Position numbers and translations under genes: made by a program. Below are positions 11,180 through 41,880 of a stretch of DNA of 64,000 nucleotides, piece by piece (the first letter of the stretch is position 1; every line of letters starts with the position of its first letter). The notes under the pieces are model-generated. The model did not search any database and was not told the origin of the DNA. It worked only from the letters and a program-made list of their open reading frames with translations. The DNA comes from Diatrype stigma. Lineage: Eukaryota > Ascomycota > Sordariomycetes > Xylariales > Diatrypaceae. Location of the stretch: contig JAKJXP020000020.1 in the NCBI GenBank assembly GCA_022225965.2, positions 310,001 to 374,000 on the forward strand, in the 5' to 3' direction.

Positions 11180-12623
11180 TCATGGTCGGATGCATGGCGG
11201 CACCATGTACGAACTTATGTACGTGCCGTCATTCTTCGAGAAGTTGAAGGAAACATGGGTGAAAACGGTGGGCGTTTCGCCAGAAATACTTTCTTCTCCA
11301 CTGTTATAGTTACGGGCTATCAGCACAATTGGAGAATCAAAACGATATAGGATGGCAAAATAAGAGGATTAAAGGAAGGGAGGAAGGAAAGTACTCACAA
11401 GGCATCCACAAGCAACCTCCTATACGTCCCATCGATGCCCCAGCTCCAACCCTGCTTCTCGAACACCTTTTCTAGGTTTTGCGCAATGGCTCGATTGCTC
11501 CTCGAGTACTGCCACAGCGGAACATACACCTTCACGTCGGGCAAGGCCTTTCTGGGCTGCACCTCCCAGCTGTATATGATGCTTGTGTGCCAGATGTTGG
11601 TAGGGTCATTAACCGGCTTCGAGACGGAGGGATCCGCGAGACCCTGCGGCTCGTCGAGCAGCAGGTGCCAGACTTCACTCAGAACCTCCAGCCCTTTCAG
11701 CGTTGTCTCATCGTTCCGTCTACCGCCTAGCGTGACGTGGTTCCTAACGTTATCCATGGTGTTGGACTCAGTGCGGGTGTAGAGCTTGACCCTCGCGCCG
11801 GCTTCGGGGGCCACGCAGTCAATGCCGATCATCTGGATGGCCAACGGCTCCTCGCAAGCGGCCCGGAAGTCGCTGATGGCCTGCAGCGGGGCCGCGAAAC
11901 CCGGATCAAGGCGGTTGAGGACCCTGAAGCTGGCTTCGTCCGAGTCCAACCCCGTGACCATCTGCTTGATCAAGGGACAGAAGTAGACCTTCATCTGCCT
12001 CTGCCCGCCGTTGAGGTCTAGCGCAATGTAGTATTGGGGCACGCGCGCAAGGCTCGGTGGCATCATCGCATTAACAGTGGCGATATCCTGCTCGTTCAGT
12101 ATGAACAGTTCCGAGGCGAGCTCGTTGAACCAGCCCATGTCCGCCTGGATCGCGCCCGCGACGTCACGCACCTGCTTGTATGGGTATCCTGAAACAGTGG
12201 GAGATCCCGTGGTGTTGTCGTTGGCTAATGGGCCGTGGGGCTCGAAGGTGAACCGCACGCATGGCTTCCCCTTGTCGTTGAGGTTGATGCTGGCCTCGAA
12301 CGTGGACGATCCAAAGTGCGATACTACGTAGATAACATCGGGGCTGGTTGGCTGAGGCCCAACATTGGGGATGACGTAGTCTTTGATAAAACGAAGGTGA
12401 GATGCCTGTTCTTCAGGCGTGTATGACCCCGCGTTCCTCAATAGCGAAGACAGAACTGGGAGATACTGCGCAGACCAGTACGCATCGTCGCTTATAGGAG
12501 TGGCTCGTGGAGCAGGTCTGCTATCTTGATCAGTTGCATGGCGAGAATGGGATGTCTTGCCACGTACTCCACGGACACGCCGTTCTCAAGATTGACTGCA
12601 CTGCTGCTGGCTTCTGTGGCCAT
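11180..12623 (-). CDS. DMATS-type aromatic prenyltransferase
   Basis: A soluble ABBA-fold (DMATS superfamily) enzyme expected to transfer a prenyl group from an allyl diphosphate to an aromatic acceptor without an Asp-rich metal motif. Exons are 12520-12623 with intron 12521-12567 removed (exon 1 12568-12623), then 11399-12520, then 11180-11300; the introns are 47 and 98 bases. The joined frame gives about 432 residues, normal for the family. Visible hallmarks are the N-terminal YWSAQYLPVL...RNAGSY segment, the VRFTFEP strand carrying the conserved acidic residue, MKVYFCP and KVYVPLW diphosphate-binding strands, and the C-terminal THVSFNFSKNDGTYISSY strand. That last strand lies in the third exon and is easily missed. 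The acceptor is unknown; given the adjacent aminodeoxychorismate synthase, an aminobenzoate-derived ring is a reasonable guess. It is divergent from the P450 at 13223. Confidence 0.92.
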
Positions 12624-13222
12624 CTCGGAATTTAACAGCCCGTGGGCAGCTGAACACGAAAGCGTTCCTTAGCAAACTATAGGCTTATCACACAGAGGCA
12701 AGTACGCCAATTCAGGGGTCACAAAGGCCTATACCGCACTTGTATGCTAATCTCCTGCAAGTGGCTCCAATTAGTTTCCATTTGCGATGAGCCGGAATCC
12801 CATCTCTATAGCAGGGTTGAGGCTATTCAGATAGAGTGTGTTGATCCTAAAGATTCCGCCACTGCGACTGGTAGGGGTCCTTGTTTCCATATTCGCATCT
12901 TCGCACCTTTGGTGATTCCGGGACCGCGGGCTACCTGGTGACACTTACCAATCCCTGGGCCGGAGGTCGGGGGATCATAGCCGGTGGTGAAACCCGCCGT
13001 GGGAGCGGAGGTGGTGGCCTTGGCATCGGCGACGGCATCGGCGACGGCATCGGTGATGGACAGTCGGCGCAAAAGACTTGGCCGTCCACGCCGGACATGA
13101 TGCTTACAATGAAAATGCCAAGGCCAGTCATTCACTTGATGGTTTCCAACCTGGAGTAGTATGCACAGTGACTGTGGGTAAATATTACGCCATTTCGAAT
13201 CAATTAATAGCCTCACTCATCA
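12624..13222. promoter_or_regulatory. Divergent promoter region, DMATS / P450
   Basis: About 0.6 kb separates the two divergent starts. It contains a three-copy 12-base GGCATCGGCGAC tandem at 13022-13057. Both genes are probably controlled from here, but no regulator site can be named. Confidence 0.45.
13022..13057. repeat. 12-base tandem repeat, three copies
   Basis: Two exact GGCATCGGCGAC units and a third with two changes. The repeat lies in the DMATS/P450 divergent spacer. Confidence 0.8.
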
Positions 13223-14935
13223 ATGAGACGGGCTAGACACGACAAACTCAAACTTAACTACCGTGTCCCTGGTTTCATAGTCCTGGATTTTGAAATGACT
13301 GCTCTGGATATAGGCGTAGGCGCTTTGCTGCGGCCGGCCGCACTGGCAGTGGCCTTGCTGGTTGTTGTGAGCATCCTCTACGAGGTGCTCCGACCCAAAT
13401 TGCCATTTGAACTCGGGGTGAAGTACCCGAAGAACCTTCCGGTTATTGGTGCGAGGAAGGGTGACTGGTTGCCTCGACTTCAGGCAAGGTGGAGGAATTC
13501 ACAGGACATCAGGAAGGCCACAGAAGAGGCCTACCAGTACAAGGATGAACCGTGCCTCATGCCCATCCTTGATATGGGCAACGTCGTGATATTGCCACCC
13601 ACGGAAGTTGCCTGGTTCCAAGATCAGCCCGAAGCCGACCTCTCTGCCCATATCCATCAACTGAATGCGTTCCAGCTTAATTTCACCCTGACTGATCCTC
13701 GTCTCGTTGAAGACACACAGCCAATACATCAAGTACTAATCAACACGACTCTGACCCGTGAGACCAACAATTTGCTCCCAGACCTAGCGGACGAGATTTC
13801 ATGCGCAGTCGAAGATGTTTGGGGAACCGACACCGAGGACTTCAAGGAGTTGTGCCTTATGGATGACATGCCCGACATTGTTGGACAAGTGGTCAATCGC
13901 GCCTTTGTCAGTGCACCGAACTGTCACAACAAGACCCTGGTCAACAGCGCCGTAACGTTCGCACGAGGCCTGGGATTTACATCAGTGTTGTTGCGATGCA
14001 TACCTGTCGTTCTGCGCCCGTTAGCCTCGCTCATCATGACTCTGCCTCAGAAGATCGGTACATGGAGGTTCTTTCGTGAGCTACGACCGGAGGTCCATCG
14101 CCGCATCCAAGAACGTTACGCCCACCAAGCAGGAAAGCTCGAAAAGAAAGTCTTTAGGCAAAACGACTTTCTCCAATGGACGATCGAAGCGGCCGCCCAA
14201 AGTGGTGACCCCTATATGATGAAGCCCAATACCATCATGGGCCGCGTGTTACTCCTCAACTTCGTCTCCATCCACACATCTTCCTTCGCCATCACGCACG
14301 CCTTACTTGACCTTGCTGCGAACTCGCCGGAGTATATTGAGGAGTTGCGGGACGAGGTCGTAGCAGGCTTAGAGAAGAACGGGGGCCGATGGAATAAGAG
14401 AACCCTGGGAGACATGCCCAAGCTGGACTCGGTGTTCCGCGAGTCGCAGAGGATGAACTCCATCGTGACGGTGGCATCACCGAAGCCAGTCTGCAATCCA
14501 GCAGGAATCACAACGCCATCGGGTCTGTATCTCCCCTACGGTGCCTACATCGGGGTCTTGTCTTACCCGATCCTGCACGACCCAGATCTGTACCCGGATC
14601 CCGAGATCTTCCGCCCCTTCCGATTTGCGGAGAGGCGCGAGGAGGCGGGCCAGCAGGGATTGAAGATGGAGAAGGCGCGCCAAAGCTGGATCTCTGTGAC
14701 GAAGACGTATACAGCCTTCGGGACCGGCCGGCACGCTTGCCCGGGCCGCTTCTTCGCAGCCAACATGCTTAAGGTTATGCTGGCGTACTTGCTCTTGCAT
14801 TACGACCTGGAGAAGCTGCCACAGCGCCCAAGGAGTCCCACGTACGGCGTATCCTTGGTGCCGCCCCTGAAGGCCACATTGAGGTTTAGACGTAGGAAAG
14901 AGCCCCTTTATAGATGGGACAAAACTATACAATAA
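13223..14935 (+). CDS. Cytochrome P450 monooxygenase (kaurene-oxidase-like class)
   Basis: A single-exon, ER-anchored P450 of 570 residues. An ATG 24 codons downstream (13295), directly before the hydrophobic anchor ALLRPAALAVALLVVVSILY, is an equally plausible start and would give about 546 residues. The haem loop FGTGRHACPGRFFA carries the ligand Cys, and the ExxR motif is ESQR. The I-helix reads FVSIHTSSFAITH, the SIHTS form seen in fungal ent-kaurene-oxidase-like P450s in place of AGxDT. Family members oxidise hydrophobic terpenes or reduced polyketides using a reductase partner. It lies between the DMATS and aminodeoxychorismate synthase genes, so it is a probable tailoring enzyme. Its substrate is not deducible. 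Confidence 0.93.
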   Translation: MRRARHDKLKLNYRVPGFIVLDFEMTALDIGVGALLRPAALAVALLVVVSILYEVLRPKLPFELGVKYPKNLPVIGARKGDWLPRLQARWRNSQDIRKATEEAYQYKDEPCLMPILDMGNVVILPPTEVAWFQDQPEADLSAHIHQLNAFQLNFTLTDPRLVEDTQPIHQVLINTTLTRETNNLLPDLADEISCAVEDVWGTDTEDFKELCLMDDMPDIVGQVVNRAFVSAPNCHNKTLVNSAVTFARGLGFTSVLLRCIPVVLRPLASLIMTLPQKIGTWRFFRELRPEVHRRIQERYAHQAGKLEKKVFRQNDFLQWTIEAAAQSGDPYMMKPNTIMGRVLLLNFVSIHTSSFAITHALLDLAANSPEYIEELRDEVVAGLEKNGGRWNKRTLGDMPKLDSVFRESQRMNSIVTVASPKPVCNPAGITTPSGLYLPYGAYIGVLSYPILHDPDLYPDPEIFRPFRFAERREEAGQQGLKMEKARQSWISVTKTYTAFGTGRHACPGRFFAANMLKVMLAYLLLHYDLEKLPQRPRSPTYGVSLVPPLKATLRFRRRKEPLYRWDKTIQ

Positions 14936-15257
14936 ACATCAGGAAGTCATATATTATATGGTACAAGACCTAGTTTATGTAGACTGCGAAAAGCTATATA
15001 GATATGGCTCTTATCAAGCCCAATGTCTGCAAACCGGCCTCCCGTTGAACACCCAATCGCACAAGAACGCCAATATAAGTTCCCCCCTGAGACCCGACAA
15101 TGCGCAAGTAAGAAATCGTGAGATACGTGAATACAATACGCTTATAGAGGAATAATCAAGTGGTTAATTGCTGACACGGCTCACCCAATGAGAATCATGT
15201 AAAGCAACCGGGGAGAAGGGAGTGCGGTGGGGCTTGCTTCATAGGCCTGTGGTCATA
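14936..15257. other. Short convergent spacer
   Basis: About 0.3 kb between the 3' ends of the P450 and the aminodeoxychorismate synthase. Nothing distinctive is seen. Confidence 0.5.
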
Positions 15258-17918
15258 TCACAACTTTTGTGACAGCAACGAACCCAGAACACTAGATGCC
15301 TTCACTTCCATCTCCAAGAATTCACCCTCGTCGGTACTTTGAATCGTGACAGCACCCCCTGCCCCTACGCGCCATTTTTCGCTTTGCTTGGCATGTTCAT
15401 CTGAGTGTCCGTTGATATGCGCATTGATTTCGGCATGGAAGTGACTGTTGGTATATAGATCACCATGACCATCCGCGTCTCCGTTAGTATGGTCGTTATT
15501 GGTTATACAACTCCCATTGTCGCGTACTGCCGTGCGTATGACCACCGAAAAGTCGCCAGAACCGCCAACGTCTAGGTACCCGAGCACACCCGAGTAAACG
15601 CCTCTGGGTCTCTGCTCTATATCCCGAAGGATCTCACAGGACCGCTTCTTCGGCGCGCCGATCATGGACCCAGGCGGCAATGAGGCCTTGAGGACATCGA
15701 TCCCTCTCGGTGGTACAGTTTTCTTCTCCCCTCGCTGCTGCTTTTTGATGGCCCCGGAGCAAGAGGATGGAGGATCGGGAAGCTGACCCTCGATGACAGA
15801 GACGAGCTGGTACACGGTCTCATATTCCTCGACGACCATCAGCTTAGACACCCAAGTGTTGGCGGCACCGATAACGCCGGCCAGGTCGTGGCGAATGAGG
15901 TCAACGATCATAAGGTTCTCGGCGCGTTCCTTGGAGCTGTTGAGGATAGCATTCGCGCACTCGCGCGTCATCGAAGGCCCTTTCTTCACCGTGCCCTTGA
16001 TGGGCCGGAACTGACACCGCCCGTCGCGCCCCCACGAGAAGAACCGCTCCGGGCTGCTGCCCACCACCACCACCCCCGGGAGGCGCAGGAACGCCCCAAA
16101 CGGTGCTGGATTGTTCTGCCGCAGTTTCCTGTATAGTTGCCAGGGGTCGAGCCCGGAGCTGTTCATGGTCGGCACCGTGATAACCGTCTCGTCGGTCAGG
16201 CAGAGTTCGTACGAATCGCCCGAGGCCAAGTAATCTTGGCATGTCAGAACCTTGCTGCGATAAGCCATCTCTTCTGGCCGAGCAACTTGTGCATTGGCAA
16301 GGACTAGATCGAGTGCACTGAGAACTTTAAGTTCTGCATTTGCTCGTTGAGAAATGTTATGGACAGCCTCCCCGCTGCGTTGTTTGGTTGCAAGCTTTGC
16401 TCGACCCTCGAGGTCGTCGATTGTTCGGCCCATATTACGGATCCACTCCCAGTCATGGGGAAGCAGAGACTGGATGTATACTCGGGATTCAGCGTGGTCA
16501 ATGACGATGCTACGGTGTATGAATGCGAAGTTGATGTCCGGGACACCGCCAGTGGCGCATGAGGGATGTAGGTCCACGTCGATGGTCTCAAGCCCGGCTT
16601 CGTACGAGATGTACCCCATGAAGCCGCCCCAGAACGGGCTCTCTGAGGGCATGTGGCCCGCGACGTAGCAGTCCATTTCGGTCAGAGATAGACCTGACCC
16701 TGGGCTAAAAGCGCGAGAAGAGTGCCCCTGGCTCTGTGGATTGTGTACATCTAAGGCTTCTTGCAAGAGGGGCCAGACCTCCTCGATGGAGTCCACGTGA
16801 AGGGAGGACATCTGACCTTGCTCCACTCCATACCATAGGGTCCGGTCAGAGACCCTGTAGCTAATCTTCATGGTCTTCTCGGGAAGCACAAGACCGAGTA
16901 TGCTGAACCTGCCTCTAGCGTGCCCTTGTGAGTCGAGGAGTACGATATCATCCCGGCTGAGTCCCAACTCCTCAAGAAGGCTGGTGGGTGTGATTGAAGC
17001 AGCTGCATGTTTCCCCCAAATCAGGAATAATTCATCACCGCCCGTGATAGAACGAAGCTTGCGAGCCATATGGGAAAAATGATGATCGTTATGATCATCC
17101 TGTTGGTCATTCGTGTAACCTCCATCTCCATTCGCCTGTAATGTAGTAGATACGTCTTTAAGGGGCTTTGATGGAAGGTTGTTACATCCATTCATAACTC
17201 GTGGACTTCGCAGAGTCAGCCACTGACTAGCTTTTGCCCACCAGTTAAGGATCAGTTCTTTCCCAGCTTCCGACGTGCAGATTGATTCGGGATGGAATTG
17301 TACCCCCCAGAAGGGTTTCGTGGTGTGCCGTAGCCCCATCAATATGGGTCCGTTGATCTCATCACTCATATCCCAAGCCAGTGGCTGTAGCGAGGGACAC
17401 TTCTCTGTAGAAGTCCAGAAAACCCGCCCATCATTATCAAACAGATTGGTGGGTTCTCCTAAATTTACATGGAGCGAGTGATATTGCGTGGTGTCAAGAT
17501 TGGTAATGCCAGCAAATATATCGCTGTTACTATGTGACACACGGCTGACTATGCCATGACGTGCTTGCTTAAGCCTTGTGACTTGAGCACCATGTGAGAA
17601 GGCAAGGGACTGAAAGCCCAAGCATATCCCCAGAATCGGTAGCATGTGGGCATCGTCGAGCTTCCAGAGCTTGTTGATCAAACCAACATCGCTAGGAGTT
17701 GACGGATTCCCAGGCCCTGGGCCTACGACAACCGCATCGAATTCGCACAGTATTTCGTCGAGGTTTCTGTCCACGGCCTGGTCGCTTATGTGGACAAGGG
17801 TAACCTTGGCGTCAAGGCATTGCTCCAAAAGGCCAATGATGTTATTGGTGAATGAGTCGAATGCATCGACGAACAAGATGCGGTGCTGCGCTTCTGGCTC
17901 TGACACAAAGGAACCCAT
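15258..17918 (-). CDS. Fused aminodeoxychorismate (PABA) synthase
   Basis: Cytosolic, intron-free, about 886 residues. The N-terminal half is a class I glutamine amidotransferase: FVDAFDSFTNN start, nucleophile in GICLGFQSL (about residue 98), and FHPES (about 210). The C-terminal half is a chorismate-binding PabB domain. The diagnostic motif PIKGT (about residue 638), with its Lys, marks aminodeoxychorismate synthase; anthranilate synthases have PIAGT. RAENLMIVDLIRHDL and PPGSMIGAPKKRS follow. The enzyme should convert chorismate and glutamine to 4-amino-4-deoxychorismate, the precursor of p-aminobenzoate. Two low-complexity inserts rich in His, Asp, Asn and Gly stand out: the interdomain linker, and a segment of about 45 residues just before the final VGAGGAVT. 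These make it longer than I expect for the housekeeping folate enzyme. I start at the ATG at 17918, directly before the conserved domain. It is divergent from the PKS gene, which suggests co-regulation and a dedicated second copy. Confidence 0.95.
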   Translation of the reverse strand: MGSFVSEPEAQHRILFVDAFDSFTNNIIGLLEQCLDAKVTLVHISDQAVDRNLDEILCEFDAVVVGPGPGNPSTPSDVGLINKLWKLDDAHMLPILGICLGFQSLAFSHGAQVTRLKQARHGIVSRVSHSNSDIFAGITNLDTTQYHSLHVNLGEPTNLFDNDGRVFWTSTEKCPSLQPLAWDMSDEINGPILMGLRHTTKPFWGVQFHPESICTSEAGKELILNWWAKASQWLTLRSPRVMNGCNNLPSKPLKDVSTTLQANGDGGYTNDQQDDHNDHHFSHMARKLRSITGGDELFLIWGKHAAASITPTSLLEELGLSRDDIVLLDSQGHARGRFSILGLVLPEKTMKISYRVSDRTLWYGVEQGQMSSLHVDSIEEVWPLLQEALDVHNPQSQGHSSRAFSPGSGLSLTEMDCYVAGHMPSESPFWGGFMGYISYEAGLETIDVDLHPSCATGGVPDINFAFIHRSIVIDHAESRVYIQSLLPHDWEWIRNMGRTIDDLEGRAKLATKQRSGEAVHNISQRANAELKVLSALDLVLANAQVARPEEMAYRSKVLTCQDYLASGDSYELCLTDETVITVPTMNSSGLDPWQLYRKLRQNNPAPFGAFLRLPGVVVVGSSPERFFSWGRDGRCQFRPIKGTVKKGPSMTRECANAILNSSKERAENLMIVDLIRHDLAGVIGAANTWVSKLMVVEEYETVYQLVSVIEGQLPDPPSSCSGAIKKQQRGEKKTVPPRGIDVLKASLPPGSMIGAPKKRSCEILRDIEQRPRGVYSGVLGYLDVGGSGDFSVVIRTAVRDNGSCITNNDHTNGDADGHGDLYTNSHFHAEINAHINGHSDEHAKQSEKWRVGAGGAVTIQSTDEGEFLEMEVKASSVLGSLLSQKL

Positions 17919-19180: not shown

Positions 19181-22100
19181 ATGGGCTCAGAAGGAAATAG
19201 TGGCAGTAACGAGGCCATGCCGATTGCTATCGTCGGCATCGGCTGCCGCCTGCCAGGTGGTGCATCGAGTGGGGAGAAGTTCTGGGATCTCCTCATGAAG
19301 AAACAGTCAGCCCGGAGCGAAACGCCCCCAGACCGGTACAACGTGGATGGCTTTTACCATCCCGACGGGGAGAAGAACGGGACAATAAACGTTCGGGGAG
19401 GCCACTACCTTGAAGAGGATATCTCGGCTTTCGATGCCCGGTTTTTCTCTATCTCGCCCGCTGAAGCCCTTAGTATGGACCCCATGCAGCGGATGCTTCT
19501 CGAGGTTGTCTACGAGGCTACAGAGAATGCGGGAATCCCCATAGCCAGCCTCTCGGGCACAGAAACAGGCTGCTACGTTGGATGCTTTACCAACGACTAC
19601 GACCAGATCGCTAAGAGGGACCCGGAGGTACTACCAAAATACCATGCCGTCGGCACCGGCCCGTCGATATTATCAAACAGAGTCAGCTTCTGCTTTAACC
19701 TTCAAGGCCCTAGCATGACGATTGATACAGCTTGCAGTAGCAGTCTGGTAGCCGTGCACTTAGCCTGCCAGAGCCTCCGGACAGGCGAGAGCAAGACGGC
19801 CATAGTGGGGGCGACGAATGCGATCCTGAACCCGGACATGAATATAGGAATGACGAATCTCCACTTCCTCAGTCCCGATTCCGTGTGTCACGCGTTTGAT
19901 TCCCGTGCGAATGGTTACGCGAGAGGCGAAGGCATGGTCGCCGTCATCCTCAAGCCGCTGAACGAGGCGATCCGGAACGGCGACACGATCCGCGCCGTCA
20001 TACGCGGTTCGGCCCTCAATTCGAACGGCAGGAACACCGGCATCACGCTGCCCTCGCGGGAGGCGCAGGCCCGCCTCATTCGCTCGGCCTATGCCCAGGC
20101 CGGGGCCAGCTGCGATCCGGCAATGACGACGTACTGCGAGGCACACGGAACGGGAACGCCGGCGGGAGATCCGGTCGAGTGCGGCGCTATCGGAGATGCT
20201 CTGGGGGTGCATCGCCCGGACGGCGAGGACGGTAAGCTCTTCGTCGGCAGCGTCAAGACGAACATCGGACACCTCGAGGGCTCGAGCGGTCTCGCCGGCT
20301 TAATTAAGGCCGCCCTGAGTGTGGAGAAGGGCGTGATTGCGCCGAACATCTGGTTCGAGAAGGGGAACCCGGAGATCGATTTCGACGGCTGGAAGATCCG
20401 TGTACCGACCGAGGCGATACCCTGGCCTGTGGATGGTCTGAGGAGGGCGAGCGTCAACGGTTTTGGTTACGGTGGCACTAATAGCCATGTAATTCTTGAT
20501 GATGCATACCATTATATGCGCGAAAGGGGGTTGCAAGGAAAACACCTCACCTATGTACCATCACCAGTGAAACTTACTAACGACATGGAGCTATTTACTT
20601 CATTATCGACCAATTCTGAAGCTTCATCTTCAGGACCGTCCCAGCTGGGCGAAAACACGCCTGACACGGCAAGTACTAGAAGCTCCATGGTTGATTCAGA
20701 GCCCAGTCCATTACAGAGACGTCCACGTATATTCTATGTGTCAGGGCATGAAAATAAGGCGGTGCTGAACAACGTGAAGGCCTATGCCGAACACCTCAAT
20801 TCAGAGATGCCGAAGAACGAAGATGGCTTTCTAGATGATCTCGCATTCACTCTTTGTGAGCGTCGGTCGCTACTGGACGTTGGAGGCGTAGCCATAGCTT
20901 CATCGAGAGAGGGCCTAGTCGAGGAGTTGAGGTCGCTATCAATGACGGTGCAACGACCCTCTGAAGTGCCTAAACTTGGCTTCATCTTCACAGGCCAAGG
21001 TGCTCAATGGTGGGCGATGGGGCGAGAGCTTATGCAATACCCAGTGTTCGCGGAAAGCATAGCTGCCTGTGACAAGGCGGTGCAATCGTTCGGCTCCTCT
21101 TGGTCATTGCAAGGTAAGTCTTCGGGATCCTTGAGCTGGTAATGCTAAGTGGACAGCTCTCATTTTAACAACCAATCACAGAAGAGTTACTCAAAGATCA
21201 GAGGTCATCTCGGATCAACAACGCGGAGTTTTCACAACCACTGTGCGCGGCTCTCCAGATTGCTCTTGTTGACCTATATGCGTCATGGAACATATTCCCT
21301 TCCAGAGTTGTCGGCCACTCTAGCGGTGAAATAGGGGCTGCATACGCCACTGGTGCGCTCAGTCTCGAGACCGCCATGTGCGTAGCATACTATCGAGGCC
21401 TCATCACACCTATCTTCAAGCCGATAAAGGGTGGGATGATGGCTGCCGGTTTGACCGAGGATGAAGCCACGAAGGAAATAGAGGCTATGGGTGACAGTCA
21501 CGGAAAGGTTGTTGTGGCATGCGTGAATAGCCCTCGCAGTGTCACGATATCGGGTGACATGCCGGCCATAACACATCTACAGGAGGACTTAACGTCGCGC
21601 AGGATCTTCGCCCGGAAGCTTCAGGTAGAGTCGGCATTTCACTCTCATCATATGCTGGCCATCGCGGACGAATACCGACAGCGGCTGAGCGACATGGAGT
21701 TCGTCCCGTGGGATCAGCGGAACCAGATTGTCATGTTCTCTTCGTCCCTGGGCTCGCCCCGAACAGTCACGGCAGATGATGATTTGTCAGCAGACTACTG
21801 GGTCAACAACATGGTGTCTTGCGTTCGCTTCTCAGGAGCGCTTGCGAAACTGTGCACGGAAGTCGTGGGCGAGGAGTCGGGGACTGTCGACATCTTGATT
21901 GAACTCGGCCCTCACGCGGCCCTAGCAGGACCAGTGAAGCAGGTTTTAGCTAACTTGCCAGGAGTTGAGCAGCAGGGAACCTCCCCCATACCGTACTTCT
22001 CGGCTCTGGCGCGAGGCAAGGACGCTGCTGTTACCGCTTTGGCGACAGCAGCGTCCTTGTTCACTCACGGTTATCCAACCGATCTACATGCCGCCAACTT

Positions 22101-25100
22101 TCCCCAATCTTCTACGAAGCCAGAGTTATCTGTTTTGACCAACCTTCCTACATATAGCTGGAACCGTGCTCTAAAATACTGGTCCGAGTCGCGCCTCAGT
22201 CATGACTATAGATTCCGCCGGTTCCCACGGACCGACATCCTCGGCGCCCCTGTCAGCGACTGGAATCCGATGGAACCCCGGTGGCGCAACTTCATTCGGC
22301 TGTCAGAGCAGCCTTGGGTAGGGGATCATGTGGTCCAGGGCGCCATTGCATATCCAGCGGCTGGATACTGTTGCATGGCCGTGGAAGCGGTGGCTCAGAT
22401 GAGTATTGTGAGCGCCGTACAAGCCGAAGAGGCTGGTCAGACGCAGAAGCCTATCAAGGAATATAAGCTCCGTAATGTCGAGATCTCGCGTGCTCTCCTG
22501 GTTCCTCAATCGGAGGAAGGCGTCGAGGTCATGTTTTCGATGCGCCCAGAGCCGGCCAGCGATACCGTTTCAGGGGATTGGAGCGAGTTCCGTATCTACT
22601 CCTATACCAATGCCGGTGGCTGGGCGGAGCATTGCCGTGGTTCCGTGTCGGCCGTGTACCAGAGTGATGAAGACTCGTTGGCTACTGAAGGCGACGAGCA
22701 TCGCACCATTATACAAAGGGCAAAAAACACCTGCAAGACCAACATTGCGTGCGACAAATTGTATGCCGGTCTTGCTACTATGGGTCTGTCTTATGGACCG
22801 GAGTTTCAAGGTATTATTGATGTCTCTGCTGGTGAGAACCAGGCATTGGGCACTGTACGTGTAACGGATACCAAGACCAAAATTCCAAAGGGCTATGAAT
22901 TCGACCGTTTAGTGCATCCAGCAACCTTGGACGCTCTGCTCCAGATGGGAATCGCAGCTCTTACCCAGGGTAACCTTGAAAACCTGACCCAACCCCATGT
23001 GCCTACCTGGATACAACAGCTCACCATCTCAAGCGATATTTCTGCACCCATCGGCCGAGATTTCCAGGTTGTGGCTGATTGCAAGCGGCACGGATCCCGA
23101 GAAGCCAATGCTAATGTGACAGCCGTGGAAGATGGCGGTAAGCCTGCCATGCAGATAAAAGGGGTAAGGCTGATAGCTATCTCATTAGGGGTCGACGATG
23201 GGGAGCTAGAGATCCCTAAGCACTGTGCCAGCGCTGAATGGGAGCCTGACGTGGACCTTCTTGTAAATCAAGAAATTCACAACATCCTCGAGAAAGCAGT
23301 CGATGTTCCGACTGACTCTGACTTTGCAAGGTTGCAGGATCGCGAGTTTCTCGCATACTACTTCATTGACCGCGTTTTGAAAGAAATCTGCGAGGACGAG
23401 CTGGAGACGATGGAGCCCCATCACCAGAAGTTCTTCCGGTACATGAAGTATCAGCGCGATCTCGTGCTAGCAAAGAAGCACGAGCAGCAGACCGAAGACT
23501 GGTCTTACCTGCACGAGCCCCATGTCATCGCCCGAGCGAAGCTGGTGATAACCGAATTGGAAAGCTCCGGCCCCGAAGGACTGATGTTTGTTCGCATGGG
23601 TCAGGCGTTGGTGTCGGTGCTGAGGCAGAAAGTCCAACCGCTTGCACTCATGATGAAAGATAACCTCCTGTTCGACTACTACCACCATGCCCCAGGCTCG
23701 AAGGGGACGTACCCAAAAGTGCAGAGGTACCTCTTGATGCTCACCCACAAGTATCCAGATCTCGAGTACCTGGAGATCGGCGCCGGGACAGGCGGCTGCA
23801 CTCGGCCCGCGCTCGAAGCGCTGAGCGGGTACGGCAACCGGCGGTACCCGCGGTTCAAGTCGTACACGTACACGGACGTGTCGCCGGGTTTCTTCGAGCA
23901 GGCGGCACGGAATTTCGGCAGCTACGCCGGCGCGGACAAGATGGAGTTCATGAAGCTGGACATCGAGCAGGACCTGGGCCTCCAACCGGGCTTCGAGGAT
24001 GGCCGTCAGTTCGACGTCGTTGTCGCTGCCAACGTACTGCACGCCACGTACGATATGGCCCGCACAATCCGCCACGTGCGCAAGCTCCTTCGCCCGGGCG
24101 GCAAGCTGCTTCTGCTTGAGGTCACCCACTCAATGCCGTCGCTGTCTCTGGTTTTCGGCAACCTGCCTGGGTGGTGGAACTGCGTCGAGCCCGAGCGCGA
24201 GTACGGCCCGCTGCTGAACGAGAGCCAGTGGCGCGACATACTCACTACGCACGGCTTCGCGGATCTCGATGTGTGCTCTCCTGACGTATCGGATCCGCTG
24301 TTCGAACAAGCAAGCGTTATCGTTGCTACTGCCGTAGAGACGGAGCCGGAGCCTGAAATGAGTGGTTCAGTGGGTGCTGCTCGTGCTCTTATAGTGATGC
24401 CTGATAAGATGCCAGACAATAGGGCTATTATCGATGTGACCAAGGCGCGACTGATTGATGATGGTGTCTGTGTTACATCACGCACCCTAGAACAATCAGA
24501 AAACGAGGACCTCTCCAAGGTCGCAGTTATCAGCTTCGCCGAATTGGAGGAATCTGTTGTAGCTAGCATTGGTCCTACCGCCTTTCACGCGCTACAGCGT
24601 CTAGTCCGGGACTCTGCCGGCATCATCTGGGTGACTCGGGGTGGAACAGCAACAGCGGGAACCCGCCCGGAGCTGGCTGTATTCCAGGGCTTAGCCCGTT
24701 CGCTACGTGGGGAAAACGAAGATGTACCTTGCGTGACCATTGACTTAGACGCGCAGCAGCCATTATCCGGCGAGGGCGCAGCGGACCTCGTTCGAAGAGT
24801 ATTTGGGCAGAACTTCGGGCCTAGGTCAGGGGTCCACGTCAAAGCCAGGGTCGTGGATCGCGAGTTCTCCGAGGCAGAGGGCGTCCTGCGCATAAAGCGC
24901 ACCATCGAGAACCCTAAGCTGGACCAGCGCATCCTTGCTAAGGCTAAGTCAGCGTACTTGGATCCTGAGCCTCAAGACATATGGGGCTCGGAGCGACCAC
25001 TTCAGGTGAAGATCCGAACTGTAGGAAAACTCGACTCACTTGTTTTCGATGAGGACACTACCATTGCGGCTGAGCAGCTGCCTGAGGATCACGTTCAAAT

Positions 25101-27294
25101 TGATATCCAGGCAGTGGGTTTAAGCCTTAGGGATGCGTCCATCTGCTTAGGTGAAGTTGTGGATGACCACCTTGGCAATGAGTGCGCTGGTGTCATTACC
25201 CACGTTGGCAATGCGGCGCATCACTTGGCTGTTGGCGATCGTGTCGCCGCCTGGTGCCCAGGATCGATCGCAACAGTGATCAGGAGTCCTGCAGCTTCTG
25301 TGCAGAAGATTCCCAACACGATGAGTTTTACCGCAGCCGCCGCGATACCTTCGGCTTTTGTGACGGCTTACTATAGCTTGATACATGTTGCGCGTGTCAG
25401 GAATAGGGATTCGGTCTTGATTCACGATGCAGCCAGCCCAGTGGGACAGGCAGCGATTCAGGTTGCTAAGCTGCACAGCGCCCAGGTATTCGTTACTGTT
25501 GACTCAGAAGAGAAGAAGAGGGTCATTTCCGAAGTCTATGGGATTCCCGGAACCCACATTCTCTCGAACCGCAATGCTTCCTTCGCTAAAACGGTTAAAA
25601 AAGCAACAGGGGGGCACGGCGTTGACATCGTCATCAACAGCCTGGTAGGCGAAGCACTACAGGCTACATGGGAGGTCATCGCTCCCTTTGGACGCTTTAT
25701 CGAGCTCGGAAAAAGTGACGCCGAAACCCTCGATCGTCAAGGTCTGGGGACCTTCGCGAGAAACGTGAGCTTCACAGCGGTCGACACCATCGACATCTTG
25801 CGCCAGGACAGAGACTTGGCTTCGGAGCTCTTCGCGGAGACCATGCAGCTCGTACGAGCGGGCTATGCCAAAGAAGCATCGCCGTTACTTGTTGAACCTT
25901 TCTCCAAGATAAACGATTGCATGAAGCTCCTCTGGGATGGCAAACATGAGGGAAAGATAGTCCTTGAACCACGTCAGGGAGATTTAGTACCGGTATGTCT
26001 CTCATATATAACATTTTCCCTGCCTAACTTGATTCTATGACATAATTGCTCTAGCTTTACCAGCTCTAATACTAACATGGCTTAGGTTGTGCCGAGGGGC
26101 TTAGAACGCATAACATTCCGTGAAGACGCCTCGTATCTTCTAGCGGGGGGTCTCGGAGGAATTGGCCGAAGCATCTCAAAATGGATGGTCAAAAACGGTG
26201 CACGCCACTTCATATATGTATCTCGTCGGGGCTTAGCACCCCCCAAAGCGGCGAAATTCGTCCAGGAGCTGGAGTCTACGGGAGCTCGTACAGCAGTTCT
26301 TCAGTGTGATGTCGCAGATGAGAAGAAGCTTAGGGAGTGTCTCTCGGAAGCACTCACCACCATGCCTCCTATTCGAGGTGTGATCAACGGCGCTATGGAC
26401 CTCAGAGACTCTATCTTCACCAATATGCCTTACGACTCCTTCATGGCTGGTGTGCGACCCAAGGTGCAGGGGTCGTGGTCGCTTCATCAAGCCACACTTC
26501 AGCAGCCGCTCGATTTCTTCGTCATGCTTACCTCAGGAGCTTCCTTTTTCGGCAGCGTCGGCCAGGCCAACTACGTCGCAGCCTGCACGTATCAGACCTC
26601 GCTCGCGGTGCACCGACGCTCTCTCGGGCTTCCCGCGACGGCATACGATGTCGGCAAAGTCGTGGACATGGGCTACGTCGTCGAGGACGAGACGGCCGCT
26701 TCGGGTCGCAACTTGAATCACCTCGGCATGCCCGACGTGCACGAGCCCGAGTTCTTGGCCATACTGGAGCAGTGCATGCTAACGGCGCCCGGTTCGGATG
26801 GCAACGGCAACATGCCCAACGGCTACGTGGTTACAGGGATACACTCGACGAACGACCCGGCACAAGGCGTCGAGTGGCCGTTCTGGAGCCGCGACCCGGT
26901 CTTCTCACACATGGACTTCGTGCGCCCGCATCTGCGCAAGACTAAGAACGACGGGGGCGGTGGTGCGTCATTGACCACGCACAAGAGGCCTTTGCCGGAC
27001 CTACTGGGAGAAGCGCCCTCGCTGCGGGAAGCAGAGGCACATGTTCTAGAGGCGCTTAAGCAGAAGCTGGCGCGGGCGTTGATGATGTCGATAGAGGACC
27101 TGGACGCGAAACGACCCATGTCGGCCTACGGCGTCGACTCGCTGATCGCGGTGGAGCTACGCAATTGGCTGTCGCGGGACGCTGCTGTCGAATTGCCCGT
27201 GTTCGAGATCTTGCAGCCGCCGTCACTGAACGCGTTGGCGAGGCAAGTCGTGAATAAGTCACCTCTTGTCAAGGCGAAGAAATCAGGCGAGTAG
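19181..27294 (+). CDS. Highly reducing type I polyketide synthase (KS-AT-DH-CMeT-ER-KR-ACP)
   Basis: Exons 19181-21113, 21182-25992 and 26086-27294 join in phase (introns 68 and 93 bases) to give 2650 residues. Domains in order: KS with DTACSSS (Cys about 185), EAHGTGTPAGDPVE and KTNIGHLEGS; AT with GQGAQ before the first intron and GHSSGE after it (Ser about 691); DH with DHVVQGAIAYP (His about 1026) and an Asp in DALLQ; CMeT with the SAM motif LEIGAGTGGCT (about 1510); ER around 2000-2200; KR with GGLGGIG and the Tyr of GQANYVAACTYQ (about 2410); ACP with GVDSL (Ser about 2600). No thioesterase, reductase or condensation domain follows, so release needs a partner. The ER NADPH loop reads IHDAASPVGQ where active enzymes usually have an AAAGGVGQ-like loop. 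The ER may therefore be silent, which fits the separate trans-ER at 36024. The product should be a methylated, at least partly unsaturated acyl chain. Confidence 0.97.
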
Positions 27295-27997: not shown

Positions 27998-29200
27998 TTA
28001 TCTCACTCTGTATTGGCTGAGTAGTGGGATGAAGTATAGTGAAGGTAGCCATAGCAGAGTATAGTAATGAAAGGTGAGATCATCTTCCTTCGCAGATCTG
28101 AGTGATAAAGCTCGTGCTGACACGAAGCACCCTATCATCATGGGTGGTATATAGCCCCAGGTGAAATATCCCCCACCCCAATAGGCAGGGAAAGCAATGG
28201 ACCAGAGACTGATGAAAAAGGCCGTGATCCAACGAGTCTTCACATCGCCTATGACCAGTGGAAAAGTGCGCCTACCTTTGATGCTGTCGCCCTTCTGGTC
28301 TCTCAAGTCTTGTATCTGAATAGTGGTGAACAGGTTGAGACCAAGCAGAGCACACCATTCGAAGCCTGCTCTAGCCATTGAGCCTGATTGTATGGACTCA
28401 GCAGCTACTCTTGTAGTACCGAGATTACCCGTCGTGTAGAATAGGACATTCATCAGGTTTTTTGACCACCACGTGCTGTTGGCACCGGCACGGTCGTGGA
28501 CCACAAGTTCCACGAGAAACACAACAGCCTCCGGAAACCCGCCCAGCCACGTCCCACTCACGAGTAGCAGGAGACAGATCGCCGCTATATACCATCGCTG
28601 AGCGCTCTTGATGCTGAGTCTGCCAGAAGGGATAGCCCTCCATGGCTTGTTTAACTTGTCCTCTTCGATGGACGAGGGGTCTTTCTGGTTGCTGCAGTCG
28701 GCATATAGATCAAGAAGCCACACGTAGAGTGCGGCCCTCGGACAAGCCTTGGCGAGGTCTTTATAGCTTAGATGTGGTTTCGTTACGACGCTAGCGGAGG
28801 AGATATTAAGCATAGCGAAGAGAATCGTAGGTAGGACGAACGACTTGACGTTACTCTCCGTTATGAGATAAGCCAGGCTGATAATTTCCCCAAGTCCAGA
28901 CATCGCCGATTTCGACTGCTTGAGGGTTAGCATTGTTATATGTTGCCAACAGTACATATCGTAGCGTACCGTTTGTAGAATCAGGCTTGCAGGGCTAGTC
29001 CGGCCTTCCTGGATACGGCCCTCCTGGAGGGGCTGAGGGGTATGGCTTGATTTCATATTGTAGAATAGTATGTATATAGAGTATATATGCGACTCAGTAA
29101 AAAGTTTGAGTTTGGACAGTCGTTCCCAGACGATGCACAACTGATTCTTCGGGGAAGCTTCCTCCTTAAATAGTAGTAGAGACATGAGGGGGCCGGTCAT
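27998..29200 (-). CDS. UbiA-family membrane prenyltransferase or terpene cyclase
   Basis: An integral membrane protein with about seven or eight hydrophobic helices, 400 residues from the first ATG. The ATG at 29056 gives 352 residues and is a more typical length. The first Asp-rich region reads LLDLYADCSNQ, followed by EEDKLNKPWRAIPSGR. The second reads QDLRDQKGDSIKGRRTFPLV, the DxxD...GD metal-diphosphate site. The NKPWR.IPSGR and QDLRDQ.GD signatures match the fungal UbiA subgroup. To my knowledge this subgroup includes the fumagillin sesquiterpene cyclase Fma-TC, as well as true prenyltransferases. The enzyme acts on an allylic diphosphate at the ER membrane. Whether it cyclises farnesyl diphosphate or prenylates a ring (Coq2-type chemistry on aminobenzoate) cannot be told from sequence. 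It lies tail-to-tail with the PKS gene. Confidence 0.88.
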   Translation of the reverse strand: MTGPLMSLLLFKEEASPKNQLCIVWERLSKLKLFTESHIYSIYILFYNMKSSHTPQPLQEGRIQEGRTSPASLILQTVRYDMYCWQHITMLTLKQSKSAMSGLGEIISLAYLITESNVKSFVLPTILFAMLNISSASVVTKPHLSYKDLAKACPRAALYVWLLDLYADCSNQKDPSSIEEDKLNKPWRAIPSGRLSIKSAQRWYIAAICLLLLVSGTWLGGFPEAVVFLVELVVHDRAGANSTWWSKNLMNVLFYTTGNLGTTRVAAESIQSGSMARAGFEWCALLGLNLFTTIQIQDLRDQKGDSIKGRRTFPLVIGDVKTRWITAFFISLWSIAFPAYWGGGYFTWGYIPPMMIGCFVSARALSLRSAKEDDLTFHYYTLLWLPSLYFIPLLSQYRVR

Positions 29201-32200: not shown

Positions 32201-32558
32201 TTCTCAGACTAGTCGACCTCAAGGCATCATGCTACAGGCTAGCAGTAGCATTCGAAAAGCAATTTGACATCATATGACCCCCTAACCGTTGCAGTGTCTC
32301 TAGATATTTCTCAAACACCTTCATCCTGTGGACGCGGCGCTCCTCAATTGTCAATATGACCTGTGGAAGTAGACAAGGTCGCAATATCGGGACCTGAAGT
32401 GGTACATCTTTAATGAATGACAGTGCCCATCCTAAGACTTCGAAAGATACTAGAACTATACTAGAGAATATCCAACCATTTCTGATTCAAAGGCGTTATC
32501 GGCCCTCCCCATGACTTTGCCATCGTCTGTTTGCTAAGTATACGTATCCACCTAACCC
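29201..32558. other. Long AT-rich intergenic stretch
   Basis: About 3.4 kb with no recognised gene. A TA dinucleotide run is at about 30680-30700. Two short plus-strand open frames (31415-31633 and 31713-32054, 72 and 113 codons) have a somewhat protein-like composition but no family resemblance and no clear splice link. They might be relics of a decayed gene. Confidence 0.45.
31713..32054 (+). other. Unrecognised short open frame, possible gene relic
   Basis: A 113-codon frame with an ATG at 31713 and moderate hydrophobicity (KLIWIFLVD segment). I recognise no domain. The neighbouring frame at 31415-31633 could be an upstream piece, but no convincing intron joins them. It is as likely to be chance as to be a gene. 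Confidence 0.2.
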
Positions 32559-33680: not shown

Positions 33681-34899
33681 ATTCTAAAGAACGAGAATGG
33701 GGGAAAATGAAAGGTTGATGGTTCCAATGAATCAATCGTTAATCTGTTTAAGGCTGGTCGCCGATTTTGATGGGACATGGGAGCCCCTAAATCATACGTA
33801 ATATAGGCCAATCCCGACAACTCGGGCGCCAACTGCATAGTCACTTGCGTATTAAGAACCAACTGCATATTCTAAACCTCGTTCTCGGCATTTCGCTCGA
33901 TGATACATAACAATGCAAGTTAACTTGGGTGAGTTATAACTAACACCAAAGCCGTTGGTAAGATCGACAGCACAGCCAATGATAAAGGGGTAAAGGTAAC
34001 GAGGTGTGATAAAGGTAGCATTGCTAATCGTAAGGCCAGCGTGGGATTCTTGGCCTTTTGCTTACCCTTAACAACTAGACAGGAAATCCTCCCTTCATAT
34101 GCCTGGCACGTATAACCCAGGATTTTTTGCTCAACTTATTGAACCAGTAGGTACCTTTCCATTGCAGCTAGAAGCCGAACATGTTGGCGTGTAAGCTGTC
34201 AAGCGCTTTCTATAGCGCGCCCTTGAGGATCTAGAGTAAGAGGAAATAACCGAGATATATGGTCGCGAGCTGCATTTCGAACCCGTCTCCCGAAACCTCG
34301 CGCGTAGGTATATGTATGACACGGTACCCTTGCGGACTAGCAAGATGTATATCAGACGTCTCTCTAAACACAAATCCCTCTCTCATGGTAAGTAAGGGAG
34401 TGAAGTAGAGTTATGATGCAAGTATCGTAACACCCGTCCACCCGTGGATGCAACCCGATTGCTAAGTCTAAACGGCGGTCTGCATTTTGACTGAGTAGCC
34501 GCAGCCGGGCTCGGGACCCACCGACCGACCCGGCCAGTTTAGCGGGTCCTTCGGCGGCGCCATTTCCGGCGAATTTCCAACCATGGCCCCGGTACGTTGC
34601 CATAATTCGAAGTAAGTCGCCGGTGACATACCCAAATTGGGACCGGGCTTCGGTAGTGTAAGCTTCTCGGTCTTCGGATTGTAAAAATCGCATCGTTTCA
34701 GGGGGCTGTCGGTGATGGCTTGAGCCACTTGCTGACTGCCGGCGTATTTGTGCTCTTCACTATAGCAGTGGCAACTGCTAACGATTCTAGGACTTGTCTT
34801 ACCACGTGAATGGGTGATTAGATTCTGAGATTTCGCACACGCGCATCCGAGCTTTGCCTCTCGAAATCCTCGTAAGCTATATACTAAGCGACCTGCAAC
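33681..34899. promoter_or_regulatory. Divergent spacer, hydrolase / NAT
   Basis: About 1.2 kb upstream of both genes. A GC-richer patch at 34480-34700 carries a minus-strand open frame (34468-34920) ending in a proline-rich segment that looks protein-like, but it overlaps the NAT start and matches no family I know. It may be a gene relic. Confidence 0.35.
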
Positions 34900-35916
34900 A
34901 TGTCCTTGTCGGCCGAGCAAGTCGAGGGGTACATTGACCGCATCTCCCTACCGCATACAGTTAGGGCATGGCTACGACAGGGTCCCAATGGTCCCAATGC
35001 TCTTGAGGCTATCATAAAGCTTCAGCAGTGCCACTTGGCTGCCATCCCATTCGAAAACTTAGATCTTGTCTATTCTTCCCATCACTCCATCCAAACCCAA
35101 ACACACCTTGCGTATGAGCATATTGTGAAGCGGGGGAGAGGCGGCGTCTGTGACTCGGTGCACCCGCTCTTCGCGAGATTACTGAGGTTCTATGGCTTCT
35201 TGGTATACCTGACAGGAAGTCGAATCAACGCTGCCGCGGGCATCGTAGCGGACTCGAAACTAGATAAATCCAAGCCAAGCTACGGACCCTGGAAAGTTTA
35301 TCCCCTCGCCTGGATTATCCGATGAAATCTACTGACAGTAACTAGGGTTCATCTGAATACCATCGTGACCATTGGCGAGAATCGGTACATAGTAGACACC
35401 GGGCACGGCCCGTCGGGGTCCCCATGGCCGGTACGTTTAGTGCACGACGAACCGGTTATTGACATATGGCCTCGGAAGCGGCGGATGATCTTCGACAGCA
35501 TCCCGGGGTGGTCCGACCCCGGGCAGAAGTGGTGGCGCATGCAGATCCAGTACACCGACACGCACCCGTGGATGGACGTCTGGGCCTTTACCGAGACGGA
35601 GTGGCAAGAGGTCGACTTCCAGATGTTGCGGAGCGCCTACACCGCCTTGGGTACGGGCTGGGTTACCCCGCGGCCGGTCTGCTTCCGGACCAAGTTCGAA
35701 GACGGCGTGCCCGTAGGCTATCTCCTCCTCGCCGAGAGAGAGCTGATACAGAATTACAAGGGCGAGACCAAGATCGTTCAGAGGTTTTTCAACGAGAATG
35801 ATCGGGTGACGGCGCTGGCGGAGGCTTTCGATCTGCATTTGACAGAGGAAGAGCAAAAACAAATTGTAGGGTATGGGGCCGAGCTCAAAGATGAAGATTT
35901 CGATTACTACGCATAG
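34900..35916 (+). CDS. Arylamine N-acetyltransferase homologue with one-base frame problem
   Basis: A NAT-family acyltransferase that moves an acyl group through an active-site Cys onto an arylamine nitrogen. The N-terminal part (34900-35295) has IPFENLDLVYS and the catalytic Cys84 in GRGGVCDSVHPLF. The C-terminal part (35346-35916) has the catalytic His in VHLNTIVTIG and the Asp in YIVDTGHG, so the Cys-His-Asp triad is present. Both parts lie in the same frame but are separated by TGA (35323-35325). Bases 35296-35345 look like an intron (GTTTAT donor, CTGAC branch, CTAG acceptor), yet removing them leaves one base too many. One extra A in the AAA at 35293-35295 would explain it. Either there is a sequencing error, an unusual splice, or recent loss of the gene. 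Bacterial relatives such as RifF join polyketide chains to arylamines, so this is a candidate release enzyme. It is convergent with the trans-ER gene. Confidence 0.8.
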
Positions 35917-36023
35917 CTGCATACTAGACGGTCAACACCGTTTGTAGTATGGGAACAATGACCCCTATAGAGTACTCCAGACATGATGCTTCAACGTTTA
36001 CCGCTACGTGTAATAGCAACCTT

Positions 36024-37211
36024 TTAAAGAGTATAAACTAGTTTAGTGCCACTGACCTTACCGCCCCTTAACTCATCTAAACCCTTCAGGGCAGCTTGAA
36101 GACCACTCCCGCCCTTGTTCACTGTAGGCTTGATAGGCTTGATCACCCCCTCGGCCAAGAGACGCTCGCTAAGTTCGTAGAACTTGACACAAAACTGAAA
36201 CGACTCGGGATTTGCGGGTATGGTCTGACCCATGAAAGTATATGTTTCACCGAACGCGTCATAACCAAGTATGGACCGTGGCCCATCCACATTCGGCCTG
36301 CAATCCTTGAGCGCCTTCTCATCCTCCGGGCTAACGGGGCTGATGGTTCCGTACACGCCCGGCTCGGAATCGCTCATCACCTCGGCGCAGATCGCGGCCC
36401 CAGTCCCCATGCAGTCCCAGGCGAAGCGAAGCTTGTTCTTCACGTATTCCCTAATCTCAAACGCGCATGTTGGGGACTTGTAGTCAAATACCGCATCAGC
36501 ACCCAGGGATCGCAGGTAATCGAAATTGTGAGGAGATGCAGTGGCGATCACAGTCAGTCCCGAAGCCTTGGCGTATTGCACACCAAGGATACCGGAAGCC
36601 GTGCTGGCGGCATGAATGAGGACAGGAAAGGGTTCCTTGGCGGGGGCGTCGGGCAGTGGTAACCCCAGGGATTTGTAAAGTCCCAAGCCCTAAGTGAGAG
36701 TCTCAGTACTGAAGGACTGTGTTCCATGACGAAGATTAAGGACATACAACTGTAGCTATACCAGCCCCGAGTGTGGCTGCCTCCTCGTCGCTGAGGAAGC
36801 TGGGAATGTGGATTTGGACAGCAGCTTTTGCTATGATGTACTCGCCAAAGGCGCCGACGTCATGATCTGTTCGCTTCCTAGGCGGCTCATCTAGTTAGAT
36901 ATTTCCGCCGAGACGCTCCGTAGTTAATGAATGCGTACTCACCCGCCATGAGTAGCCCCTGCAATCCGGTCGCCCTTTCTGAACTTAACGACTTTACTGC
37001 CGACATCCTGAACGACACCAGCGTAATCGAAGCCTATCTTGGACCCGGCGTCTGCCGCACCATAGTCTATATGCTTCCAATCCGACGGGTTCAAGGCTAC
37101 AGTCTTCACCTTGACGAGCACCCACTCGTCCCGTATTTGGGGGATAGGCACTTCTCGGACTGCAGCGGCCTTTCCGCCTTCAATGACCACTATGGCTCGT
37201 GTCGTGTCCAT
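36024..37211 (-). CDS. Trans-acting enoyl reductase (LovC-like MDR)
   Basis: Three exons (36943-37211, 36748-36877, 36024-36689; introns 65 and 58 bases) join in phase to give 354 residues, close to LovC. It is a medium-chain dehydrogenase/reductase without the structural zinc loop. Visible features are [17 protein letters not shown]...GDRIAG in the substrate domain, then a nucleotide-binding domain with [15 protein letters not shown] and [17 protein letters not shown]. The end SGTKLVYTL is typical of PKS-partner enoyl reductases. It should reduce selected enoyl intermediates on the PKS ACP in the cytosol, supplementing the apparently defective ER of the PKS at 19181-27294. I start at the ATG at 37211, where the conserved N-terminal strand begins; an open frame extends further upstream. 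It is divergent from the P450 at 37853. Confidence 0.93.
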
Positions 37212-41757: not shown

Positions 41758-41786
41758 ATAACCGCGCCGGCGCTGGCATTGGCGTA

Positions 41787-41880
41787 AGTGCAGGCTATAG
41801 GTGCAAGCTATAGGTGCAGGCTGTAGGTGCAGGCTGTAGGTGTAGGCTGTAGGTATAGGCTGTAAGTGCAGGCTGTATGT
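41787..41880. repeat. 13-base minisatellite
   Basis: About seven imperfect copies of GTGCAGGCTGTAG (variants GTGCAAGCTATAG, GTGTAGGCTGTAG, GTATAGGCTGTAA) lie in the interior of the inverted-repeat element. Confidence 0.85.

Follow-up and report, generated by a model that had tools for sequence, protein, structure and literature searches.

Gene content of the locus

The window analyzed here, 64,000 nucleotides of a 552,687-base contig (JAKJXP020000020.1, positions 310,001 to 374,000) from the 49 Mb genome of Diatrype stigma (Xylariales), contains a gene cluster that combines an extra aminodeoxychorismate synthase (ADCS), a highly reducing polyketide synthase (HR-PKS) and an acyltransferase of the arylamine N-acyltransferase (NAT) family. 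Between 11.4 and 39.7 kb, the gene order is DMATS-family prenyltransferase (minus strand), cytochrome P450 (plus), ADCS (minus), HR-PKS (plus), UbiA-superfamily protein (minus), alpha/beta hydrolase (minus), NAT (plus), LovC-like reductase (minus) and a second P450 (plus). The arrangement of the three central genes described in an earlier note on this DNA was confirmed: the ADCS and HR-PKS are divergent, the PKS ends at its ACP, and a NAT with Cys, His and Asp lies 7.6 kb beyond. The range given in that note, 11180-37211, also takes in the DMATS, first P450, UbiA, hydrolase and LovC-like genes, which its title does not name; the start codon of the last of these coincides with the right-hand end of the range. 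The genes most relevant to the present analysis are:

15258..17918, minus strand: PabA-PabB fusion ADCS, extra to the housekeeping copy; single exon
19181..27294, plus strand: HR-PKS with the domains KS-AT-DH-MT-ER-KR-ACP, 2650 aa; introns 21114-21181 and 25993-26085
34900..35916, plus strand: NAT-family acyltransferase; exon 1 from 34900, exon 2 to 35916, intron at about 35292-35346
36024..37211, minus strand: LovC-like enoyl reductase, candidate trans-acting ER; three exons with canonical introns; PF00107; start codon at 37211

The ADCS consists of GATase, Anth_synt_I_N and chorismate-binding domains, with the lysine motif PIKGT at 15990-16004, and scores 619.5 bits against TIGR01823 (PabB-fungal; cut-off 442.55). 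A genome search with its N-terminal domain recovered two further loci, namely the housekeeping PabA-PabB fusion (PMKGT) and TrpE (PIAGT). In the tree, the cluster ADCS is far from the housekeeping copy, which is itself on a long branch. The cluster revealed no lyase of the PabC type; one of five Aminotran_4 matches, all of them on other contigs of the genome, may serve as the lyase. Among the ADCS homologues, that of Coniochaeta ligniaria (P0142, 1066 aa) carries an added 2OG-Fe(II) oxygenase domain (PF03171), and its 3.2 Mb contig also has a related PKS.

Both introns of the HR-PKS are GT-AG, and the deposited D. stigma PKS record covers 99% of the long PKS exon of the window at 100% identity. 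Active-site motifs were identified for KS, AT, DH, MT, KR and ACP, the ACP serine motif being GVDSL at residue 2597. The cofactor motif of the ER is altered (LIHDAASPVGQAA) and reads AASPVG instead of GGxG. The domain scan found no domain downstream of the ACP; termination at the ACP is the usual case for an HR-PKS and not a peculiarity (PMC13284220). For the LovC-like reductase, queried with its last exon (221 aa), the nearest solved structures are those of LovC, 3b6z and 3gqv, at 88.8 bits (E 3.7e-24 for 3b6z), and the next is at 32.3 bits.

The two exons of the NAT match PF00797 with 47.7 and 38.9 bits, respectively (cut-off 22.8), and the joined reading places the catalytic residues at Cys84, His134 and Asp149. 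Around these residues, the protein has diverged from the other, canonical NAT of the same genome (GGVCDSVH compared to GGYCMEAN, and VDTGHG compared to VDVGFG).

Co-occurrence and phylogeny of the three genes

We compared 24 NAT matches, 120 of 2848 ADCS homologues and 120 of 4489 PKS homologues, and traced co-residence by two signs, contigs equal in size to the base and locus numbers; the counts given here hold among these listed matches. At least two of the three genes are present on 18 contigs, ADCS and PKS on 15, and all three on three, namely those of Xylariaceae sp. FL1272, Aphanocladium album and a contig of 67,028 bases, the window being the fourth case. No contig size repeats within the ADCS list or within the PKS list, and 12 of the 15 shared contigs are shorter than 200 kb. 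The locus numbers of the three genes in A. album are 02932, 02934 and 02938; in Pseudogymnoascus VKM F-103, the ADCS is V499_00043 and the PKS V499_00041. No ADCS record of D. stigma is present among the 120 of 2848 homologues, the cluster gene having been read from the window. Because 15 contigs carry both genes, the sequence comparison supports the view that the ADCS and the HR-PKS are members of one pathway.

The NAT matches fall into a tight subfamily (19 of 24; E <= 2.3e-51) and a distant remainder (5 of 24; E >= 3e-6). Of the ten subfamily members on contigs longer than 20 kb, six, including the D. stigma record, have a listed ADCS, a listed PKS or both on their contig. The search for co-occurrence of the PabA/B fusion, NAT and HR-PKS proposed in the earlier note was thus positive, and the results support an association of the NAT subfamily with ADCS and PKS in several lineages.

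In the PKS tree (FastTree), 14 of the 15 ADCS-linked rows belong to a branch of 4 rows and a branch of 32 rows, the neighboring 34-row branch has none, and the tree does not resolve the order of these three branches; the fifteenth row, from a 1.38 Mb contig, lies elsewhere. The five NAT-linked rows, the D. stigma record among them, are all in one 21-row branch within the 32-row branch. The ER motif is altered in all 21 rows of that branch (the window and its deposited record are counted separately) and intact in the 15 remaining rows of the 4- and 32-row branches. Given that the branch with the NAT-linked rows has the altered motif, a LovC-like gene next to the NAT has a natural role. The likeness to HR-PKSs of the LovB/LovC type with a trans-acting ER lies in the altered ER in cis together with a LovC-like gene nearby, whereas the PKS is another one, and release in the LovB/LovC system presumably differs from that in the present cluster.

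The neighboring 34-row HR-PKS branch (P0171-P0195 and others, from Alternaria, Plenodomus, Pyrenophora and other fungi), which has no ADCS links, shows an altered ER motif in 33 of its 34 rows, with one gap, perhaps a second loss of the ER in cis.

Prenyltransferase, UbiA protein and other neighbors

The domain scan covered 27 of the 55 window open reading frames (ORFs) of at least 150 aa. The remaining genes in and next to the cluster are:

11395..12623, minus strand: DMATS-family aromatic prenyltransferase; PF11991, 304 bits; N-terminus and first intron approximate
13295..14935, plus strand: cytochrome P450, single exon; PF00067, 125.7 bits; heme Cys motif FGTGRHACPG within 14717-14758
27998..28903, minus strand: UbiA-superfamily membrane protein; PF01040, 70.5 bits; QDLRDQKGD; nearest PDB entry 6m31, 26.5 bits
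32559..33680, minus strand: alpha/beta hydrolase, Abhydrolase_3; nucleophile motif GDSAG
37853..39687, plus strand: second cytochrome P450, one intron; PF00067, 137 bits
42488..44381, plus strand: FAD aromatic monooxygenase of the phenol hydroxylase type; PF01494 and PF07976; PDB 8r2u, 122.6 bits; cluster membership unsure
44729..45753, minus strand: aldo/keto reductase; PF00248; cluster membership unsure

The DMATS protein scores 286.6 bits against TIGR03429 (cut-off 163.85); its nearest PDB entry is 3i4x, and in the alignment with this entry the ELS stretch retains its Glu. Its identification as a tryptophan enzyme was rejected given the score of 103.9 against TIGR03430 (tryptophan dimethylallyltransferase), with a cut-off of 740.75.

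The UbiA protein has motif II, QDXXDXXXD, of UbiA-type terpene cyclases (here QDLRDQKGD), whereas motif I, NXXX(G/A)XXXD, is not matched by the corresponding NQKDPSSIE (motifs as defined in PMC9835599). It is distinct from L007 and L008, two proteins encoded in this genome that have NDxxDxxxD. Because motif II is present, it is possible that the cluster product carries a terpenoid part. Genome-wide, there are 13 UbiA-domain matches, of which at least four (that of the window, L009, L010 and L011) have QDxxDxxGD and two, L007 and L008, have NDxxDxxxD, so that genes resembling UbiA-type cyclases may be expanded in D. stigma.

The second P450 is separated from the FAD monooxygenase by 2.8 kb with short ORFs only, beyond which the FAD enzyme (plus strand) and the aldo/keto reductase (minus strand) follow; this AT-richer interval includes a tandem array of a 13-base unit in 7.2 copies (41784-41877). 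To the left of the cluster, 6 kb from its nearest gene, a Zn2Cys6 transcription factor gene (2973-5181) is a candidate regulator. The fungalysin M36 metallopeptidase and subtilase genes to the right (52521-53504 and 58223-60418) are likely unrelated.

A model of the pathway and its alternatives

With the genes, most of the catalytic motifs, the phylogeny and the contig co-residence as the observed base, the interpretation that the cluster makes an arylamine-polyketide amide appears to us about as probable as all its alternatives combined. Under this model, the extra PabA-PabB fusion, judging by its family and motif, would convert chorismate to aminodeoxychorismate, from which a lyase encoded elsewhere would produce 4-aminobenzoate (PABA). 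The HR-PKS, with its own ER altered, would build a reduced, C-methylated chain, the LovC-like reductase acting in trans. By analogy with the reaction reported for the bacterial AsuC2, we infer that the NAT N-acylates PABA or a derivative with the polyketide: the chain would be held on the ACP until the NAT cysteine accepts it, and would then pass to the amino group. The acceptor may be PABA itself or a derivative made from it through prenylation by the DMATS enzyme and oxidation by the P450s or the FAD enzyme. The transfer by the NAT and the identity of the acceptor are the least supported steps of the model.

Several observations weigh against this model. A NAT match is absent on 12 of the 15 contigs with ADCS and PKS; if most of these absences are real, the ADCS-PKS pair uses the arylamine by another route. 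Some of them are likely to be gene-model misses, as suggested by FL1019, which has ADCS and PKS without a NAT match and which both trees place as the sister of FL1272, a NAT carrier. Neither a listed ADCS nor a listed PKS is present on four of the ten NAT contigs longer than 20 kb (Monosporascus CRB-9-2, Elaphomyces granulatus, Trichothecium roseum and a contig of 44,504 bases); in the case of Monosporascus CRB-9-2, other strains of the genus serve as representatives of the ADCS and PKS clusters. The best ADCS and PKS matches of Hapsidospora chrysogenum are on separate contigs, and this fungus has no NAT among the 24 matches. The altered ER motif, shared by the 33 rows of the ADCS-unlinked branch, is not a mark of the NAT alone, and the alpha/beta hydrolase could release the chain. 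Furthermore, GdmF, the Streptomyces aureus enzyme 8k56, the Fusarium N-malonyltransferase FDB2 and human NATs are matched about equally well (Z scores no more than 2 apart) by the predicted structure of a relative of the NAT (P0004, from Aphanocladium album), so that donor specificity is not settled by structure.

The splicing of the NAT gene is a further point of this kind. No single GT-AG intron joins the exons in frame without loss of conserved residues; the only two single GT-AG introns that retain Cys, His and Asp excise 120 or 159 conserved bases, and among the 233 two-intron combinations that retain these residues, the ten inspected give 249-293 residues compared to the approximately 320 expected. 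The deposited D. stigma NAT protein follows the letters of the window and skips the stretch bearing His and Asp, as does the Monosporascus model. The NAT genes of the relatives have ordinary gene models, and in one of them (P0019) the exon-1 ORF stops just past the same GPW, as expected for a donor there. Possible causes of the missing canonical donor in D. stigma are non-canonical splicing, a sequence error or a recent lesion. A lesion would be recent because both exons are stop-free and conserved, and a canonical splice solution exists, or none is needed, for the remaining genes that were tested (DMATS, LovC-like reductase, second P450, FAD enzyme, aldo/keto reductase, PKS, UbiA and hydrolase). 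There is a substantial, albeit minority, chance that this strain no longer makes the amide, its NAT not being spliced to a working enzyme; this would be compatible with any interpretation of the intact relatives. The lack of a canonical donor where the relatives splice and the deposited protein without His and Asp are in favor of such silencing, whereas the intact exons, the canonical state of the other genes and the possibility of non-canonical splicing or sequence error argue against it.

An alternative that we deem unlikely, although it deserves serious consideration, is that the NAT does no more than acetylate or malonylate the arylamine, for protection, tailoring or detoxification, and the hydrolase frees the polyketide, which is joined otherwise or not at all. 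The solved structure closest to the NAT by sequence is indeed that of the FDB2 N-malonyltransferase (7qi3, 93.7 bits), an Abhydrolase_3 protein with GDSAG is encoded between the PKS and the NAT, release of an HR-PKS product by a trans-acting hydrolase is known (SoaB, PMC13284220), and the NAT-free majority of the ADCS-PKS contigs fits this scenario as well. However, a canonical NAT is present elsewhere in the genome, and the cluster NAT is part of a diverged subfamily, with the PKS rows linked to that subfamily lying in one branch. Coupling of the arylamine to a terpenoid acid, as by PtmC in platensimycin biosynthesis, with the polyketide attached as an ester to another part of the molecule, would account for motif II of the UbiA protein and for the two P450s, which could oxidize a terpene. 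The fumagillin pathway, which follows the ester logic, reportedly includes a UbiA-type cyclase, an HR-PKS and an alpha/beta hydrolase acyltransferase. We nevertheless regard this scheme as improbable: motif I is unmatched, no acyl-CoA ligase domain was found in the 27 of 55 ORFs scanned, and the conserved partner of the ADCS is the PKS.

PABA starters occur in bacterial polyene PKSs, and the ADCS-PKS pair is more widespread than the NAT, as could be expected if PABA, following the candicidin logic, primed the PKS and the NAT acted later on the free amine; given that no adenylating enzyme was found in the 27 scanned ORFs and that the PKS has no loading domain, this route seems no less improbable than the terpenoid one. 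The explanation to which we assign the least probability is that the extra ADCS, which does duplicate a housekeeping enzyme, is a resistant copy that guards against a product hitting folate synthesis. Against this, the ADCS is a neighbor of prenyltransferases and an arylamine acyltransferase and retains PIKGT, and its relatives share contigs with PKSs in many fungi. The polyketide-aminobenzoate amide put forward in the earlier note therefore stands in part. It is favored by the evidence that the ADCS and the PKS belong to one pathway, by the linkage of the NAT subfamily in several lineages and by the fit between the LovC-like gene and the altered ER, and is weakened by the ADCS-PKS contigs without a NAT match and by the lack of a canonical NAT splice.

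Relation to known systems and implications

The closest parallel to the proposed amide formation is found in asukamycin and colabomycin E, manumycin-type compounds of Streptomyces, for which it is reported or proposed (PMC11213898) that a NAT (AsuC2 or ColC2) joins the polyketide chain to 3-amino-4-hydroxybenzoate. A NAT homologue, a dedicated aminobenzoate supply and a polyketide chain are common to both cases, whereas the bacterial systems use a type II PKS and 3-amino-4-hydroxybenzoate, and the present cluster a fungal HR-PKS that works iteratively and, probably, PABA. The arylamine N-acyltransferase 8k56 of S. aureus, which, judging by the organism, is probably ColC2, shares 23% identity with P0004. 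RifF, named as a precedent in the earlier note, holds as an example of a NAT-family amide between a polyketide carbonyl and an arylamine nitrogen; however, RifF and GdmF, the ansamycin amide synthases with the same fold, catalyze the intramolecular closure of a macrolactam within one modular PKS chain, and AsuC2/ColC2 fits better. Linkage of a NAT gene to arylamine supply and a PKS, as in the AsuC2/RifF/GdmF group, was found in the window and in three further contigs among the matches listed.

With respect to fungi, a search of the open-access literature aimed at such systems found none described, in agreement with the view of the earlier note that this layout had no described fungal counterpart. 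The Soa cluster of Myrothecium (sorbamide) likewise combines a fungal HR-PKS, a hydrolase and an amide-forming enzyme, but the latter is an ATP-dependent amidotransferase for which the free acid is the substrate, together with ammonium or glutamine, and neither an arylamine nor a NAT is involved (PMC13284220). A survey of fungal NATs in predicted biosynthetic gene clusters places NAT2 of Acremonium chrysogenum in an antiSMASH indole-T1PKS region (Table 1, PMC11213898); this is a listing, and section 7 of the paper does not mention ADCS or off-loading. A PKS of A. chrysogenum (P0163) falls in the 21-row branch, and no NAT of this fungus is present among the 24 matches. The antiSMASH label "indole" is used for DMATS genes. 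This region may be a relative of the present cluster.

Taken together, the sequence evidence indicates that the combination of ADCS, HR-PKS and NAT is real and recurs in other fungi, and makes the joining step plausible. A broader generalization, to which we give slightly less than even credence, is that these clusters represent a fungal pathway family with members in more than one ascomycete class, where a diverged NAT transfers the chain of an iterative HR-PKS with a dead ER in cis to an arylamine that derives from PABA and is supplied by a dedicated ADCS, yielding prenylated or terpenoid-decorated N-aryl amides. Such a family would be a separately reached eukaryotic counterpart of the joining step in manumycin biosynthesis. 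Many fungal HR-PKSs have no release domain, and the release enzyme is unknown for most clusters. If the model is correct, NAT-catalyzed transfer of the chain to an arylamine would constitute a release route new to fungi and could serve as a tool in the production of N-aryl amides, the combination of ADCS, HR-PKS and NAT would provide a search handle for an unexplored family of compounds, and the NAT genes in predicted fungal clusters would become testable amide synthases.
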